Shown here: one piece after another, positions 18,672 to 62,039 of the stretch
Layout: each line of letters opens with the position of its first letter
Numbering within the stretch: position 1 is the first letter of the stretch
Source of the DNA: Aquirufa lenticrescens
GTDB taxonomy: Bacteria > Bacteroidota > Bacteroidia > Cytophagales > Spirosomataceae
DNA length: 64,000 bases
Reading direction: 5' to 3'
Assembly (NCBI RefSeq): GCF_019916085.1
Contig: NZ_CP049834.1
Coordinates: 62,001 to 126,000 of the forward strand
Translations under genes and position numbers: made by a program
The notes under the pieces: generated by a model
Seen by the model: the letters and a program-made list of their open reading frames with translations, nothing else
Database searches by the model: none
Told to the model about the DNA's origin: nothing

Positions 18672-18696
18672 AGTATAGATAATAGAGTAGAGAGAT
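18669..18696 (+). repeat. Short heptad-repeat tail starting at the dnaJ stop codon
   Basis: Four 7-bp units in register: TAGAGTA, TAGATAA, TAGAGTA, GAGAGAT. The dnaJ stop TAG is the first triplet of unit one. The 14-bp word GATAATAGAGTAGA (18678-18691) is identical to the unit repeated seven times after pepT. No gene lies between here and the terminator at 18747. Confidence 0.7.
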
Positions 18697-18746
18697 GAGA
18701 TTTATTACTTCGGACTCATTTCCTCCGGACTTACCTATCTGATACT

Positions 18747-18778
18747 AACAAAAAAGGGGCGAATGCCCCTTTTTTGTT
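18747..18778. terminator. Bidirectional terminator between dnaJ and the DUF2723 gene
   Basis: A 14-bp perfect inverted repeat, AACAAAAAAGGGGC with loop GAAT. The GC core is flanked by A and T runs on both sides, so either strand yields a hairpin followed by six Us; it can end both convergent units. Confidence 0.88.
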
Positions 18779-18793
18779 ATCCATATCTACACT

Positions 18794-27908: not shown

Positions 27909-27951
27909 TTAATTGAGTTTAAAATTGAAATGCAAAGATAGGAAACTTAGC

Positions 27952-28056
27952 TTAGAGAGCAAAGATTATAGAGTAGAGAGTATAGAGAAAATCATCTAAA
28001 ATATCTCCTCTATCATCTATAATCTCTACTCTATACTCTATAATCTAAAGTCTTTA
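27952..28056 (-). repeat. 105-bp heptad-repeat element (9+1+5) starting at the mobA-like stop codon
   Basis: Fifteen 7-bp units in unbroken register. On the minus strand from the TAA stop: nine units of TATAGAG type (TAAAGAC, TTTAGAT, TATAGAG, TATAGAG, TAGAGAT, TATAGAT, GATAGAG, GAGATAT, TTTAGAT), one transition unit GATTTTC, then five of the reverse type (TCTATAC, TCTCTAC, TCTATAA, TCTTTGC, TCTCTAA). The halves can pair in several registers. It fills most of the 145-bp gap before purL. The element at 40776-40880 has the same plan with different units. Confidence 0.8.
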
Positions 28057-28626
28057 AATCCCCCAATACTCCCGATCCTCCGGCACGTCAACATCTCGGA
28101 ATTTATCAGAAAAGTGAATGATTTCGCAGAGCATCGGATTTTGGCGCCAAAATTTCCCCAATCCCTGGTCTCCACTCCAACGGTTAAACAAAGGACGCAA
28201 TGCAGATGGTATTAATACCGGTGGAGAATTCACCCCTTGAAATGAGGCGACTATGGCTCTTTCAGGATTAGCCAGCGACGTTAAATTCTTAATGTGGCTA
28301 GAGGTCAAAAAAGGCAAATCACATAAGAGCACTAAGACATCTTTGGAGAAATCAATCGTTTTCAAGCCCACTGCCAATGACTCCCCCATACCTTTGTCCC
28401 AATGTTCAACCTGAACAAAAGATAAAGTAGGAAACTCCTTTTGTAAATTCTCGATGATACGAATGGATTGATCCACTTCAGCACCTAAACAAACTTGAAC
28501 TTCTTTACAGACACTAAATGCAAGTCGAATAGACCGCTCTAAAAGGCTTTGGCCTTGGTACACTAATAATTGTTTTGCTTCTCCTAAACGGGACGATGCG
28601 CCCGCCGCTAAAATTAATCCGGTCAT
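28054..28626 (-). CDS. MobA-like nucleotidyltransferase (molybdenum cofactor cytidylyl/guanylyltransferase family)
   Basis: 190 residues with the NTP-transferase signature LILAAGASSRLGEAKQLLVY at the N terminus, LLCDLPFL (metal-binding Asp) in the middle and GDQGLGKFW, which fits the MocA/MobA-like group. Such enzymes attach CMP or GMP to molybdopterin or activate sugars. No other molybdenum cofactor genes are nearby, so the substrate is uncertain. Its TAA stop opens the heptad element. It diverges from the methyltransferase gene across 64 bp. Confidence 0.85.
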   Translation of the reverse strand: MTGLILAAGASSRLGEAKQLLVYQGQSLLERSIRLAFSVCKEVQVCLGAEVDQSIRIIENLQKEFPTLSFVQVEHWDKGMGESLAVGLKTIDFSKDVLVLLCDLPFLTSSHIKNLTSLANPERAIVASFQGVNSPPVLIPSALRPLFNRWSGDQGLGKFWRQNPMLCEIIHFSDKFRDVDVPEDREYWGI

Positions 28627-39119: not shown

Positions 39120-40550
39120 ATGAATTTCTCCTTTAACAACTATGATCCGGAAGGCTTTTTCGATGAAATGTTCGAAGCGGACGGAAGTGTACGCATTGGA
39201 TACGAACACTTTAAAGAACGCGTGGAACAACTCAGCAAAGAGGAATTTTTAAGCCGTCAACAATCCGCAGAAAGAGCCTTAATGGCCATGGGAATCACGT
39301 TTAATGTCTATTCAGAAAACGAAGGAACCGAGCGCATCATGCCGGTGGACATTATTCCGCGCATTGTTGAAGCAAAAGAATGGGAGAAAATCGAAAAAGG
39401 ATTAATTCAACGAATCACTGCCTTGAATTTATTTTTAAATGATATTTATTCAGACCAAAAAATCATCAAAGACGGGATCATTCCCGCTGAAGTGATTAAC
39501 TCTTCTAAAGATTTTCTAAAAGCTTGTATCGGCATAAAGCCTGCCAAAAACATCTACATCCACATTACTGGAACCGATTTAATTCGAGGTAGCGATGGGG
39601 AATACATGATTTTAGAGGACAACTTACGCTGCCCTTCAGGTGTATCCTACATGATGGAAAACAGAGAGCTATTAAAGCAAACCTTTCCGGAAGTAGTAGC
39701 CAAAACCCAAATCAGACCCATTTCTGATTATCCTAATAAGTTATTAGAAATGCTGCGTTTCATCAGCGATCGACCAGATCCGACCGTCGTAGTTTTAACG
39801 CCAGGAATCTATAATTCTGCCTATTTTGAACATTCCTACCTAGCTCAACAAATGGGGGTGGAATTAGTCGATGCGCGTGATTTAGTCGTACACGAGGGGT
39901 ATGTCAAAATGCGCACTACTAAAGGTTTCCAAATCGTCGATGTTATCTACCGCCGGATTGATGACACATTTTTAGACCCTAACGTCTTTAATCCAGACTC
40001 AATGATAGGTATCCCAGGCATATTCGAAGTCTATAAAAATGGCAAAGTGGCGATAGCTAATGCGCCCGGAACCGGTGTTGCTGATGACAAAGTGATTTAT
40101 GCCTATGTTCCTCGAATAATTAAGTATTATCTAAACGAGGAACCAATTATTCAAAATGTCAAAACCTACATTTGCGCGGAAGAAGAAGATCGCAATTATG
40201 TCTTAGCCAATATTGAGAAATTAGTGGTGAAAGAAGCGAATGAGGCTGGAGGTTATGGCATGTTAATAGGGCCAAAATCAACCAAGGAAGAACAAGAAAA
40301 ATTCAAAGCCCTCATCCTCAGCAATCCAAGAAATTATATCGCACAACCGACCATCTCTTTATCCCGAGTACCTTGTTTAATCGAGGACCATGCGGAAGGT
40401 CGCCACGTGGATTTAAGACCCTATATTCTGTATGGAGATGGGGTAAATGTGATGCCAGGAGGTTTAACGCGAGTGGCGTTGAGAAAAGGTTCGCTAGTCG
40501 TTAACTCTTCGCAAGGGGGTGGGTCGAAGGATACGTGGGTTATGTATTAG
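39120..40550 (+). CDS. Circularly permuted type 2 ATP-grasp protein
   Basis: 476 residues matching the DUF404/DUF407 family: GYEHFKERVEQLSKEE, YSDQKIIKDGIIP, ILEDNLRCPSGVSYMMENR, GGYGMLIGP and LRPYILYGDG. Family members are thought to make amide bonds and usually sit beside an alpha-E domain protein and a transglutaminase-like protease; neither is here, so the gene is an orphan and may act alone or with a distant partner. Upstream 149 bp is AT-rich without a full promoter match. Its TAG stop is part of a 20-bp inverted-repeat arm. Confidence 0.88.
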   Translation: MNFSFNNYDPEGFFDEMFEADGSVRIGYEHFKERVEQLSKEEFLSRQQSAERALMAMGITFNVYSENEGTERIMPVDIIPRIVEAKEWEKIEKGLIQRITALNLFLNDIYSDQKIIKDGIIPAEVINSSKDFLKACIGIKPAKNIYIHITGTDLIRGSDGEYMILEDNLRCPSGVSYMMENRELLKQTFPEVVAKTQIRPISDYPNKLLEMLRFISDRPDPTVVVLTPGIYNSAYFEHSYLAQQMGVELVDARDLVVHEGYVKMRTTKGFQIVDVIYRRIDDTFLDPNVFNPDSMIGIPGIFEVYKNGKVAIANAPGTGVADDKVIYAYVPRIIKYYLNEEPIIQNVKTYICAEEEDRNYVLANIEKLVVKEANEAGGYGMLIGPKSTKEEQEKFKALILSNPRNYIAQPTISLSRVPCLIEDHAEGRHVDLRPYILYGDGVNVMPGGLTRVALRKGSLVVNSSQGGGSKDTWVMY

Positions 40551-40776
40551 GAATTCGGGTTCTGAATCGTCGACAGGTCAAATGATTCAGAACCCGAATT
40601 CCTATTACATATCTGGAACAAAATAAGAATCAAATGAATTCGCCCCTACATTTTTAATACATATCAAGGGAAATGAAAGATCAAATGATTCAGAACCCGA
40701 ATTCCTATTACATATCTGGAACAAAATAAGAATCAAATGAATTCGCCCCTACATTTTTAATACATACCAAGGGAAA
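40549..40776. repeat. Snap-back repeat: arm at the stop codon plus two tandem 96-bp copies
   Basis: Arm 40549-40568 overlaps the ATP-grasp stop. Its exact reverse complement occurs at 40584-40603 and again at 40687-40706. These lie in two 96-bp direct copies, 40578-40673 and 40681-40776, that differ at a single base and are separated by 7 bp. GTCGACAG flanks the pair on both sides (40569-40576 and 40777-40784). No gene is visible; with the heptad element it makes up the whole 327-bp convergent gap. Confidence 0.9.
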
Positions 40777-40880
40777 GTCGACAGTAGCTAGTAGTCAGTG
40801 GACAGTATTTGTGAATAGATACTGATTACTGACTACTACCCACTGGATACTGTCCACAAAAAACTGCCTACTGATTACTA
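40776..40880 (-). repeat. 105-bp heptad-repeat element (9+1+5) starting at the SnoaL-like stop codon
   Basis: Fifteen 7-bp units. Minus strand from the TAG stop: TAGTAAT, CAGTAGG, CAGTTTT, TTGTGGA, CAGTATC, CAGTGGG, TAGTAGT, CAGTAAT, CAGTATC (nine), TATTCAC (transition), then AAATACT, GTCCACT, GACTACT, AGCTACT, GTCGACT (five, reverse type). GTGGACAGTAT (minus strand, 40848-40858) pairs with ATACTGTCCAC (40798-40808). Same length and plan as 27952-28056, with different unit sequence. Confidence 0.8.
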
Positions 40881-41384
40881 CTTGAATAAGCTCATAATTC
40901 CGGCAGTGTCATAGGCTAACCACTCCTGCACGATCTTCCCGTTTTTAATCAGGTCTACCGCACTTATAACCACTTTTACCGTTTTATCCCCTTTGGTTAA
41001 TGCAGCATATTGATATGAAATCACATAATTGTTTGCCTCTTTCATATTTTTATTTTTGTGTACGTATTCCCAAATAGGAGCTACTTTCTCAAATTTCACA
41101 GAAATCCCATTTGCTTTTAAGGCTTTGAGAAAAGCCACATTCTGAGTTAAATTCTTTTCCTCGAGATTATCGTGGAATTTCACCTTTTCCGCATAAAAAG
41201 ATTTGTAAGTGACTGTATCCAACGCTTCTAAGGCTTTAATTGAATTTAAAACCCATTTTGTGTTGGGTGATTGCTCCAAGCTATACCCAGAATTAAAACC
41301 GGTTTCGGCATTACCTTCATGAGAAACGGATTGACCAGATGCAAAAGCTGAAATGGTCAAAAATACAAAGACTAATTTTTTCAT
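40878..41384 (-). CDS. Secreted SnoaL-like (NTF2-fold) protein
   Basis: 168 residues: signal peptide MKKLVFVFLTISAFASGQS, then an NTF2-like domain (WVLNSIKALEALDTVTYKSF, YAEKVKFHDN, VVISAVDLIKNGKIVQEWLAYD). Such domains serve as small enzymes or binding modules; no catalytic set is evident. It is probably periplasmic. The TAG stop begins the heptad element. It diverges from the AraC-type regulator across 162 bp. Confidence 0.78.
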   Translation of the reverse strand: MKKLVFVFLTISAFASGQSVSHEGNAETGFNSGYSLEQSPNTKWVLNSIKALEALDTVTYKSFYAEKVKFHDNLEEKNLTQNVAFLKALKANGISVKFEKVAPIWEYVHKNKNMKEANNYVISYQYAALTKGDKTVKVVISAVDLIKNGKIVQEWLAYDTAGIMSLFK

Positions 41385-46630: not shown

Positions 46631-46710
46631 TTTTCATTCCATTCAAAATTGTGCTTCGCAATAATTTAGAGAATTTCACCAAAGAAAAAACAACTCTGAA
46701 GACAGTAAAC

Positions 46711-46746
46711 AATCAAAAAAAGCGGCCTATGCCGTTTTTTTTGATT
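46711..46746. terminator. Terminator between thyA and surA
   Basis: 16-bp inverted repeat AATCAAAAAAAGCGGC / GCCGTTTTTTTTGATT, loop CTAT, with one G:U pair. Eight T follow on the plus strand and A-runs mirror them, so it is probably bidirectional. Between thyA and here (46631-46710) I see no gene. Confidence 0.85.
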
Positions 46747-46752
46747 CCAAAT

Positions 46753-46822
46753 TTATGCTTTGTGCTTTATGCTCTATGCTTTACATCTATACTCTCTACT
46801 CAATTATCTCTAATCTAGATTA
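46753..46822 (-). repeat. Heptad-repeat tail starting at the surA stop codon
   Basis: Ten 7-bp units on the minus strand: TAATCTA (containing the stop), GATTAGA, GATAATT, GAGTAGA, GAGTATA, GATGTAA, AGCATAG, AGCATAA, AGCACAA, AGCATAA. They then run into the terminator. The AGCATAA half resembles 59107-59141. Stops occur in all three frames. Confidence 0.72.
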
Positions 46823-48178
46823 CTCTCTTTGCTGCACATCCTCTAAGATCTTACAATCCTTATACTCGTCATCAATAAAGATAAACACATCGTCTTTCGC
46901 CTTCATAAACCACTTTTCGATGGCGTTGTTCTTTTTACGAGACAACGTGATTTGAGATAGCTTTTGGTAATCATCCTTTAGGTTAGCAAAGTGCGGAGGG
47001 TGTTTTGCTTTGAAAAACAAAATACGTACGGCTGAGCGGCCATCGTCTGTACGGAAAGGAATCGGCGCGGAAATGGTTCCCACCTTCATTGAATCCAAGG
47101 CAAAGAATAAGGCTGGATCCATTGTTCCATCATAGGCTAAACGATTAGCGCCATTACTAGGATCCATCAATACGCCACCAGCATCTTGGGTAGCTTTGTC
47201 TTCTGAGAATTCTTTTGCTGCCTTTTCAAACGTAGTTGAATCGCGCTGAACTAGTACGCGAATACTATCTAGGAATTTAGTAGGCTCAGTTAAATCAAGT
47301 TTCTGGTAATCGGGACGCAATAAGATATGGCGTGCGTGGTATTCTTGACCTCTGATTTCCAATAATTGGATTAAGTGGAAACCAAATTCTGACTCTACTA
47401 CATCCGACATTTGATTCGGCTTTAAGCGCAAGGCGGCTGCCTCGAAGGGAGCAACCATGGCACCACGTTTGGCAAATCCTAAATCTCCACCACGTTTTCC
47501 TGAACCTAAATCTTCTGAATGTACTTTGGCCAAATCCTCAAAACTCTCCCCTTTTTCTACCCGACGACGGAAATCCAATAACTTCGCATACAACTCTTCC
47601 TTCTGATTCTTATTCGGCTTTGCGACGCGAATGATGTGGCTAATCTCGACCTCTGCAGGCAAATAGGGTAATGAATCACGAGGAATCTCATTGAAAAATG
47701 CGGCAACCTCCTTAGGCGTAATTTTCACGTCATCCGTGATTTTATCCTGCATTTTACGGCCCGTCAATTGTTCTTTTAAAGAAGAACGTAAATCCTCTTT
47801 TAAGGTAGCAATAGATTTCCCATAGGCCTCAACGATGTTCTTTGCTGATCCATATTGACCCTCCATTTGCTCCATACGACTTGTTAGTTCAGCCTCGATT
47901 CGCTTATCTTCCACGATTACGGAATCAATCTCTGCTTTTGCGAGCATTAATTTGTTAACAACTAATCCTTCCAAAATTTGGCAGCGATTAGGTGTATTTG
48001 CTTGTCCGCTTGTCAGGTATTGCTGGTACTGATTCTCTACCTCAGATTTCAAAATGAAGTAATTATCTACCTTCACTATGATGCGATCTAACACATTCTT
48101 GTTTGCTTCCTCTTGCGCAAACGCAGATAAACTCCCTAACACTAAACACCAACCTAAAACCCAACGAGTCAATTTCAT
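46820..48178 (-). CDS. surA: SurA-like periplasmic peptidyl-prolyl isomerase/chaperone
   Basis: 452 residues: signal peptide MKLTRWVLGWCLVLGSLSAFAQ, a SurA N-terminal helical domain (RIIVKVDNYFILKSEVENQY, LEGLVVNKLMLAKAEID), a first parvulin domain (VEISHIIRVAK...GGDLGFAKRGAMVAPFE...FGFHLIQLLEI) and a second, weaker one (YHARHILLRPDYQ ... DDGRSAVRILFFK). It helps outer-membrane proteins cross the periplasm. The neighbouring PPIase gene lies 8 bp upstream. The stop opens a heptad tail. Confidence 0.93.
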   Translation of the reverse strand: MKLTRWVLGWCLVLGSLSAFAQEEANKNVLDRIIVKVDNYFILKSEVENQYQQYLTSGQANTPNRCQILEGLVVNKLMLAKAEIDSVIVEDKRIEAELTSRMEQMEGQYGSAKNIVEAYGKSIATLKEDLRSSLKEQLTGRKMQDKITDDVKITPKEVAAFFNEIPRDSLPYLPAEVEISHIIRVAKPNKNQKEELYAKLLDFRRRVEKGESFEDLAKVHSEDLGSGKRGGDLGFAKRGAMVAPFEAAALRLKPNQMSDVVESEFGFHLIQLLEIRGQEYHARHILLRPDYQKLDLTEPTKFLDSIRVLVQRDSTTFEKAAKEFSEDKATQDAGGVLMDPSNGANRLAYDGTMDPALFFALDSMKVGTISAPIPFRTDDGRSAVRILFFKAKHPPHFANLKDDYQKLSQITLSRKKNNAIEKWFMKAKDDVFIFIDDEYKDCKILEDVQQRE

Positions 48179-57605: not shown

Positions 57606-58874
57606 ATGCCGCAGCTCTCGGAATTGATCCAAAAATACGCCTTCACATCGAAAGAACGTTTTCTTGACTATGTCCAAATAGACACCCAATCCGACCCCCA
57701 CTCGAGCATCAGCCCCACGACAGAAAAACAAAAAAATCTAGGAAAGGTTTTGGTTCAGGAACTTCATTCCCTCGGAATTTCCAATGCACACCTTGATGAT
57801 TTTGGCTATGTCTATGCGCACATTGCCTCCAATGTACCTCACGAAGTACCTGGCCTTTGTTTTTGTGCCCACATGGATACCTCTCCAGATTGCTCTGGTG
57901 AAAATGTAAAACCAATCGTTCACCCCTATTACCACGGACAAGATTTGGTTTTGCCGGATGATCCATCCGTCATTATCCGGCTAAGTGAACACCCAGACTT
58001 AGCGGAACAAATCGGCAATGATATCATCACGGCCAGTGGAACGACGCTTTTAGGGGCAGATAATAAAGCCGGAGTCGCTGAAATTATGGACGTAGCTGCC
58101 TTTTATGCAGCACATCCGGAGGTTCCTCACGGCCCCATCACGATTCTTTTCACACCGGACGAAGAAGTCGGTCGCGGTACGGATCATGTGGATATGGAGA
58201 AGATTAATGCCCAATACGGCTACACCTTAGATGGCGAAAAGCGCGGGCATTTAGAGAATGAAACCTTCTCTGCGGATGGATTTGTTGTAAAAATTCAAGG
58301 CATTTCTCAGCATCCGGGTTTTGCCAAAGGCCGTATGGAAAGCGCCCTTAAAATAGCCGCAGAAATCGTCAACACCCTCCCTAAGGACCGCCTAAGCCCC
58401 GAAACCACCGAAGGAAAAGAAGGCTTCATTCATCCCACGGACATATCAGGCAGTGTGGAAGAAGCAACCATCGAATTCATTATCCGCGATTTTGAAACGG
58501 AAAAATTGCGCGAATACGGATTCATTATCCAACAGATTTCCGAGATGGTCTTGCGCAAATACCCTAATTCATCTGCGACTTACACCCAAACGGAGCAATA
58601 CCGCAATATGAACGAAATTCTGGTCAATCACCCAGAATGCATCGACCTGGCGATGGAAGCCATGCGCCTTGCTGGCCTAAAAGCCGAAACCACCAGCATT
58701 CGCGGCGGAACTGACGGATCCCGCCTAACTTTTATGGGCTTACCTTGTCCTAATATCTTCGCTGGCGAACACGCCTTCCACAGCAAACAAGAATGGGTTT
58801 CCGTACAGGATATGCAGAAAGCGACGGAGACGGTGCTTTATCTCGTTAGTTTGTTCGTGGAGCGTTCTCGCTGA
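57606..58874 (+). CDS. pepT: Peptidase T (tripeptidase)
   Basis: M20-family zinc aminotripeptidase, 422 residues. Metal and catalytic residues appear in CAHMDTSPD, LGADNKAGVAE, TPDEEVGRGTD, GYTLDGEKRG and the C-terminal FAGEHAFHSKQEWV. The dimerisation domain (about 210-320) has GISQHPGFAKGRMESALK. Cytoplasmic, peptide nutrient use. Its TGA stop is followed at once by the seven-copy 14-bp repeat. Confidence 0.95.
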   Translation: MPQLSELIQKYAFTSKERFLDYVQIDTQSDPHSSISPTTEKQKNLGKVLVQELHSLGISNAHLDDFGYVYAHIASNVPHEVPGLCFCAHMDTSPDCSGENVKPIVHPYYHGQDLVLPDDPSVIIRLSEHPDLAEQIGNDIITASGTTLLGADNKAGVAEIMDVAAFYAAHPEVPHGPITILFTPDEEVGRGTDHVDMEKINAQYGYTLDGEKRGHLENETFSADGFVVKIQGISQHPGFAKGRMESALKIAAEIVNTLPKDRLSPETTEGKEGFIHPTDISGSVEEATIEFIIRDFETEKLREYGFIIQQISEMVLRKYPNSSATYTQTEQYRNMNEILVNHPECIDLAMEAMRLAGLKAETTSIRGGTDGSRLTFMGLPCPNIFAGEHAFHSKQEWVSVQDMQKATETVLYLVSLFVERSR

Positions 58875-58972
58875 GATAATAGAGTAGAGATAATAGAGTA
58901 GAGATAATAGAGTAGAGATAATAGAGTAGAGATAATAGAGTAGAGATAATAGAGTAGAGATAATAGAGTAGA
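58872..58972 (+). repeat. Seven perfect tandem copies of a 14-bp (2 x 7) unit after pepT
   Basis: GATAATAGAGTAGA repeated seven times without change from 58875 to 58972, directly after the TGA stop. Each unit is two heptads (GATAATA, GAGTAGA). Copy identity suggests recent slippage expansion. The rest of the gap to guaA holds, in order, a small hairpin (ATCGCC/GGCGAT, 58981-58995), the pepT terminator, another hairpin (59086-59100), a heptad run and a snap-back repeat; GATGGAATC (58976-58984) pairs with GATTCCATC (59098-59106). No gene. Confidence 0.92.
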
Positions 58973-59025
58973 GAGATGGAATCGCCTCCGGCGATGAATT
59001 CAGAAATGATTTTCATTAATACAAT

Positions 59026-59053: not shown

Positions 59054-59106
59054 AATACGTATATGAAAAAATCACTCCTGAAATTATCCCCATCGGGGAT
59101 TCCATC

Positions 59107-59141
59107 TTTATGCTTTATTCTTTGTGCTTTATACTTTACCA
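59107..59141 (-). repeat. Heptad run downstream of guaA
   Basis: Five units in register; minus strand TGGTAAA, GTATAAA, GCACAAA, GAATAAA, GCATAAA. The run then reaches TGGAATC, as the surA tail does (GCATAAATTTGGAATC there, GCATAAAGATGGAATC here), so the two loci share a common element. Confidence 0.65.
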
Positions 59142-59266
59142 CTGAAATAAATTGTTTTGTGATGTGAAGAAATCATTGCGAAGCACGCAATACCACTGAA
59201 ATAAATTGTTGTGTGATGTGAAGAAAATATTGCGCAGCACATTTTCGAACACACACAACAATTTAT
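59137..59266. repeat. Snap-back repeat at the guaA stop codon: arm plus two 50-bp copies
   Basis: CACACAACAATTTAT (59252-59266) contains the guaA stop (59263-59265). Its exact reverse complement is at 59201-59215, and with one mismatch at 59147-59161. Those lie in two 50-bp direct copies, 59137-59186 and 59191-59240, identical at 46 of 50 positions and 54 bp apart. Layout matches 40549-40776. Confidence 0.85.
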
Positions 59267-61999: not shown

Positions 62000-62039
62000 T
62001 CGTGTTTTCTTTGCGGTTCAGAATTGAAAATCAAATCTA

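Follow-up and report, generated by a model that had tools for sequence, protein, structure and literature searches.

The 64,000-nucleotide stretch analysed here from the genome of the freshwater bacterium Aquirufa lenticrescens (the window; positions 62,001 to 126,000 of NZ_CP049834.1, the genome being a single contig of 2.505 Mb) contains, at positions 40776–40880, a run of heptads that switches orientation along its length. This raises the questions of (i) whether the element forms a special pair with a second one at 27952–28056, both following a 9+1+5 plan and each written from a local seed, as a sequence-only reading had suggested, and (ii) whether a copying process or selection on structure rather than sequence lies behind it. 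The coordinates and the stop codon were correct in that reading: the open reading frame at 40878–41384 (minus strand) ends in TAG at 40880–40878, from which the heptads run outward. Its description as SnoaL-like is unconfirmed, with no Pfam match at E ≤ 0.001. The 105 bp can, on our reading, be divided into nine heptad slots, one transition slot and five reverse slots (Table 1), and scoring against CAGTANN (minus-strand sense) returned eight forward-type and four reverse-type units with at least 6/7 positions matching, spaced at 7 bp within each arm. The minus strand of this region folds at -38.6 kcal/mol versus a mean of -22.1 kcal/mol for shuffled sequences (z -5.16; 0/200 shuffles as good); as a hairpin, the element is more than a product of chance. 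Its units are so degenerate that it is listed neither by Tandem Repeats Finder nor by a period-7 detector at score 12, and the case for it therefore consists of its fold and its family. The stem is followed by a T run on neither strand, leaving the element outside the terminator definition of a G+C-rich stem plus T run, and an Rfam search over the window gave no match.

Table 1. Heptad elements and neighbouring repeats of the window (window coordinates)
Feature	Position	Strand	Basis
Arm 1: nine CAGTANN-like slots, outward from the TAG stop of ORF 40878–41384	40818..40880	-	sequence, unit scoring
Transition slot separating the arms	40811..40817	.	slot reading, unit scoring
Arm 2: oppositely oriented CAGTANN-type units; outermost slot below 6/7	40776..40810	+	unit scoring; pairs with arm 1 in the fold
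Hairpin without heptads (28 pairs), spanning the ATP-grasp stop codon	40542..40610	+	fold, relatives' alignment
103-bp tandem duplication, 1.9 copies, between hairpin 40542–40610 and the heptad element	40578..40776	+	Tandem Repeats Finder
Two-armed TAGAG-type element, codirectional gap after a MobA-like gene	27949..28057	.	comparison element of the sequence-only reading
Convergent gap with TAGAG-type arms	18672..18793	.	array detection, relatives' comparison
CATAAAG-type and TAGAG-type arrays, outward from gene 46820–48178 (-), beyond a terminator-like hairpin	46752..46840	-	
Perfect 14-bp repeat (two TAGAG-type heptads) x 7.3, from the stop of ORF 57606–58874 (+)	58873..58974	+	Tandem Repeats Finder
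CATAAAG-type array, opposite orientation, same convergent gap as 58873..58974	59105..59138	-	

Arrays with a 7-bp period form a class in the Aquirufa genomes sampled and lie at the 3' ends of genes, chiefly between convergent ones. We grouped the units, in gene-sense orientation, into families A (CAGTANN), B (TAGAGNN), C (AAAGNAY), D (GGTRAAT) and E (AAAGNNC), to which F (GGTAWKA) and H (TRGACGY) were added. Three consecutive CAGTANN units, with at most one mismatch, occur 114 times in the 2.505 Mb of the A. lenticrescens genome (hereafter the own genome), and the reversed pattern 0 times. Across 464 kb of this genome (the window together with twenty 20-kb stretches at even spacing), periods of 7, 14 and 21 yielded 19, 15 and 7 segments at score 14, followed by periods 15 and 18 with 5 and 4, and by 0 or 1 for each of the remaining periods from 2 to 24. 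Among 38 genomes of the genus, of varied completeness, A was detected in 16, D in 15, F in 20 and H in 8 (in one of these family searches the reversed control was invalid, the reversed pattern being a rotation of the family), while F and H were searched for and not found in the own genome. Beyond the genus, a search of 296 Bacteroidota genomes found four consecutive CAGTANN units in 42 (28 of 140 genera) and the reversed control in 16, so that part of the former count may reflect a general abundance of heptads; among 16 stretches of 20 kb taken from the phylum, period-7 arrays were seen in two, one being an inverted pair that abuts two convergent stops. Families A to E each recur at many loci of one genome, and a family can be missing from other Aquirufa species; the proposed local seed is therefore rejected, and the heptad words are not locus-specific, neither CAGTANN nor TATAGAG being confined to its own locus. 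The likeness of the two compared elements was correct in so far as 27952–28056 can be divided in the same manner, but its stop is TAA and its first slots match poorly; moreover, it belongs to family B, and the two are thus two of many. The element at 40776–40880 is real, but it is not a member of a special pair. Three further repeats may be recorded here: the array at 58873–58974 is much more uniform than the others in Table 1, perhaps owing to recent expansion; a 54-bp tandem repeat (1.9 copies) with small palindromes lies beside the GMP synthase gene (window 59137–59240); and a short G+C-rich palindromic motif resembling TCCGGAGGAAATGAGTCCG is found between heptad arms at L032 2252–2263, near 6520 in L054 and near 18720 in the window.

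Array density differs with gap type. In the own-genome sample, arrays amount to 146 bp per kb of convergent gap, 25 of codirectional gap and 0 of divergent gap (36, 73 and 64 gaps), and in two further sets the corresponding values were 102, 23 and 6, and 249, 80 and 13; genes were called simply as the longest open reading frames of at least 80 codons, and some gap types are therefore wrong. With no array in the 64 divergent gaps, placement upstream of start codons, as in Beggiatoaceae, was not seen in this sample. When the rate of period-7 matches was averaged over 56 convergent gene ends of the own genome and 134 of its relatives, it stayed at 0.24–0.28 up to the last ten bases of the gene (counted to the end of the stop codon), where it was 0.32, and ranged from 0.32 to 0.45 beyond; period 14 rises as well, a rise not seen for periods 6 and 8. 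The period-7 signal thus begins at the stop codon. Within convergent gaps, 37 of 43 left-half arrays are purine-rich and 35 of 41 right-half arrays pyrimidine-rich (L051, L052 and five loci from genomes already sampled being left out of this count), and with convergent placement and a purine-rich outward polarity the arms face each other and can pair. Additionally, in the own genome the ends of two rRNA operons, near copies of one another, carry A and B arrays of the same polarity from 47 bp past the 5S gene, indicating that translation is not required and that stop codons are not essential. At these two sites (L188 1013–1087 and L195 1059–1133) the first arm is near-identical, and the farther arrays are of different families.

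Arm length was compared over 26 two-armed gaps from seven genomes, eight of the gaps being from the own genome. Detected arrays summed to 25–104 bp on the left side and 16–99 bp on the right; therefore, while the 9+1+5 division can be cut at both of the loci for which it was proposed, it is not a rule, arm lengths elsewhere varying several-fold. Of the properties expected to be constant among such elements, length, unit count and switch point are not kept, whereas the switch of orientation between arms is general. Both arms also occur in some codirectional gaps, which contain one gene 3' end (window 27949–28057, L033, L053 and L138), and the inverted plan is thus not simply the meeting of two independent gene ends. 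Compared with arms drawn from other gaps of the same genome, the two arms of a gap align better (permutation, p = 0.0008, 23 gaps) and also pair better, by permutation of pairing energy (p = 0.0003, 26 gaps). Some gaps of the own genome have arms of unmatched families. In 22 alignments the partner from the same gap came top only 9 times, against an expectation of 5.0, and recent inverted copying is therefore not general: the family usually agrees between the arms of one gap while the order of units usually differs, the exceptions being L053 and the G001 counterpart of gap 46631–46819, which fold as near-perfect inverted arms.

Comparison of the same gap among relatives identified the variable part of these structures. 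The ATP-grasp protein of the window has its nearest named relatives in Aquirufa (98% to A. antheringensis), and among 21 relatives' loci its stop codon is followed by A, B and then B', A' in L053, by GAGTKAA in L057, L058 and L085, by TRGACGY in L059, L061, L086 and L090, by GGTAWKA in L063, L065 and L070, and by A-like mixtures in L051 and L054; several others, including L062, L064, L066, L071 and L089, carry no heptads at this place. Similarly, over a 126-kb region compared between the own genome, G017 and G001 (median protein identity to the own genome of 94.7% and 95.9%, respectively), the three genomes carry, in this order, B, C/C' and E/E' at gap 18672–18793; B/B', C/C' and D/D' at gap 27909–28053; and C'B', B with C'B', and E/E' at gap 46631–46819. 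In the remaining gaps of this region the family is kept, or the case is ambiguous. At several gaps the heptad family is thus replaced between close relatives, often in both arms together, while place and fold are kept. The suggestion of structure rather than sequence was accordingly well aimed, given that several orthologous gaps keep their position, polarity and two arms with different heptad families, and that the pairing of the arms is specific to the locus.

We favour, at somewhat less than even confidence, the reading that two-armed heptameric repeats, of which the element is one, are dispersed at the 3' ends of transcripts and arise by slippage of units and by strand switching from arm to arm. 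Slippage would make and trim arrays in 3' flanks, where it would do little harm; strand switching between the inverted arms would copy words of one arm into the other; exchange between loci would spread the vocabulary across the genome; and perfect adjacent units would be lost again, leaving degenerate arrays. Arm-to-arm switching would thus give both arms one family; their unit order would be shuffled, and perfect neighbours removed, by slippage. The outcome would be a long hairpin, serving both directions, where transcripts end. It may have a mild effect on how 3' ends form or on how stable the transcript is, and such a two-way function appears plausible. A stronger version of this proposal, which we put forward more hesitantly, is that the hairpin sequence is disposable: a heptad vocabulary, specific to the species and used genome-wide, would be written into both arms together by arm-to-arm copying at the DNA level, with place, polarity and pairing persisting as the word itself is exchanged entirely from one sister genome to another. 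If true, this would be concerted evolution of structure without conservation of sequence.

At three inherited family A loci the own genome and G001 differ in length by 14, 8 and 41 bp (the pair L048/L201 was left out, its anchor not being unique), of which the first corresponds to two units and the others are not multiples of 7. No excess of adjacent identical units was observed, the number being at or below the mean of within-array shuffles in all eight family tests, and simple slippage of single units is therefore not enough. Copying of unit blocks between loci was considered and rejected, since the sharing of family A words is not above that of shuffles: one pair of loci has a four-unit word in common, versus a shuffle mean of 0.25, and 104 of 500 shuffles reach one (L195, the near copy of the rRNA locus L188, was left out of both the word-sharing and the adjacent-unit tests). 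Exchange between loci would consequently be deduced only from the shared vocabulary; loci have words in common, not sentences. The copying process suggested by the sequence-only reading is, in its arm-to-arm form, consistent with the joint replacement of arms and with the two-sided changes of the adjacent hairpin described below, but the two arms of a gap generally share unit order little more than arms from different gaps do. Overall, the observation made in that reading is partly confirmed and its interpretation partly supported.

The hairpin at the ATP-grasp stop codon (40542–40610) permits a closer view of how paired sequences change. Across six genomes 93.5% of 168 cells are paired although the stem sequence is largely replaced, and of these cells 30 differ on both sides, 11 are unpaired and none shows a one-sided difference that preserves the pair. 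The six rows represent only two or three sequence groups, and the events are therefore few. These changes support copying at this place; the pairing is just as well accounted for by selection acting on the hairpin RNA. The loop, resembling GTCGACAGGTCAAATGA, is kept, and a search for the loop motif returned only this locus in the stretches examined; the 103-bp unit at 40578–40776 repeats the 3' half of the hairpin.

The foremost alternative to slippage and strand switching is a selected RNA device, in which the arms are kept as a two-way terminator or as a hairpin protecting the 3' end and the heptads are raw material, any family serving. We consider this a possible but rather unlikely account. 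That the pairing between arms exceeds that of swapped arms and outlasts a change of family is what such a device would display, as are the density of arrays in convergent gaps and their presence after rRNA operons. The absence of one-sided changes of the G-U type from the 28 pairs of the adjacent hairpin points instead to DNA-level copying, albeit from few independent events, and gaps with arms of unmatched families fit the device poorly. Terminator-like sites are present beside some arrays and are equally common in convergent gaps with arrays (16/37) and without (19/45), a comparison that counts against the device and by which the notion of arrays as substitutes for terminators was rejected.

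A neutral expansion tied to transcription, which we regard as unlikely, would proceed from purine-rich nascent RNA that is free of ribosomes past the stop codon and re-anneals to DNA, replication then expanding the heptads. Such re-annealing of nascent RNA to DNA is the R-loop part of this account. The onset of arrays at the stop codon, the purine-rich sense strand and the lack of arrays in the 64 divergent gaps of the own sample are all in agreement with it; however, arrays also follow rRNA operons, whose transcripts are ribosome-free anyway, and the matched second arms and the period of 7 are left unexplained.

It is more improbable that the arms are mobile palindromes moved by an enzyme, in the manner of REP sequences with their Y1 transposase, or of a MITE. 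REP/BIME sequences are extragenic palindromes with a fixed sequence of 20–40 bp, and have been suggested to act in termination and mRNA stability; the Aquirufa arms have no fixed sequence, varying in both length and composition of their letters, and a search of 38 genus genomes for Y1_Tnp (12 with a match at E ≤ 0.001, 10 over the cut-off) found it absent from the own genome, G001 and G013, all of which bear arrays. In favour of mobility are the dispersal of families genome-wide and the differences in whole intergenic elements between conserved borders.

A translational fail-safe, whereby a period not divisible by three would place stop triplets in all frames past the gene end, is very improbable. 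Many sense-strand units do contain TAG, TAA or TGA, and stop triplets are commoner on the sense than on the antisense strand in 17/24, 11/15 and 23/32 arrays of three sets; nevertheless family E, as we read it, has no sense-strand stop, arrays follow rRNA operons, and, according to MacGregor (2015, PMC4679880), repeats containing stop triplets can only sit at the ends of open reading frames, which would explain the overlap with stop codons without a function. That a dedicated reverse-transcriptase-like enzyme writes the heptads from a template is barely credible, for although the unit is constant at 7 bp with a limited set of variants and the own genome has one such gene (L235 1096–2481, 461 aa from the first ATG), PF00078 matches, at the threshold used, in only 5 of 38 genus genomes and is absent from G001, which is 99% complete and rich in arrays. 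A REP-type transposase and a reverse transcriptase therefore both seem unnecessary.

The occurrence of different words at the same gap, in the same gene order, makes the choice between function, mutation pattern and mobile DNA answerable by comparison of strains and by exchange of arms, and it implies that 3' hairpins can persist and yet escape methods that seek conserved sequence. To our knowledge, no accepted reason exists for the over-representation of heptamer repeats in many bacteria. Among known systems, the STRR heptanucleotides of cyanobacteria are tandem repeats dispersed through the genome, and the Aquirufa arrays resemble them in both respects. The closest counterparts are the heptameric repeats GGGAATC and GGGGA(C/T)T of Xanthomonas and Nostoc (Rehm et al. 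2015, PMC4692102; a Calothrix STRR case is also mentioned in that paper), which are there described as dispersed, intergenic 7-bp units, some of whose positions vary; those that follow genes are mostly on the coding strand 0–50 bp from the stop codon or overlapping it, and the repeats are rare between divergent genes, variable in the same gap among relatives and, in Xanthomonas, forming inverted pairs (70 and 75 cases in two genomes). The Aquirufa arrays likewise occupy the coding strand close to or across the stop codon, are rare in divergent gaps and form inverted pairs; inverted heptads near stop codons are therefore already published. In that study Xanthomonas and Nostoc each have one G-rich, quadruplex-forming family, whereas Aquirufa has several interchangeable families, most of whose units are without G-tracts (judged from the unit letters, GGG is absent from the common units of A, C, D, E, F and H, the rare CAGTGGG excepted), and which can differ at the same gap in sister genomes. 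In literature that included few subscription papers, no account was found of Aquirufa repeats or of replacement of heptad families at orthologous gaps, and within the sources available to us interchangeable families swapped at such gaps are not found in print. Finally, MacGregor (2015, PMC4679880) describes dispersed TAACTGA heptads in Beggiatoaceae, Cyanobacteria and some Bacteroidetes, and mentions other heptamers for intergenic regions of Bacteroidetes; on the opposite strand this repeat is close to family A (TCAGTTA vs CAGTANN). In the Beggiatoaceae genome it is reported to lie mostly just upstream of start codons in 2–6 copies, with one indirect repeat, whereas the arrays of Aquirufa lie downstream of genes and are two-armed.
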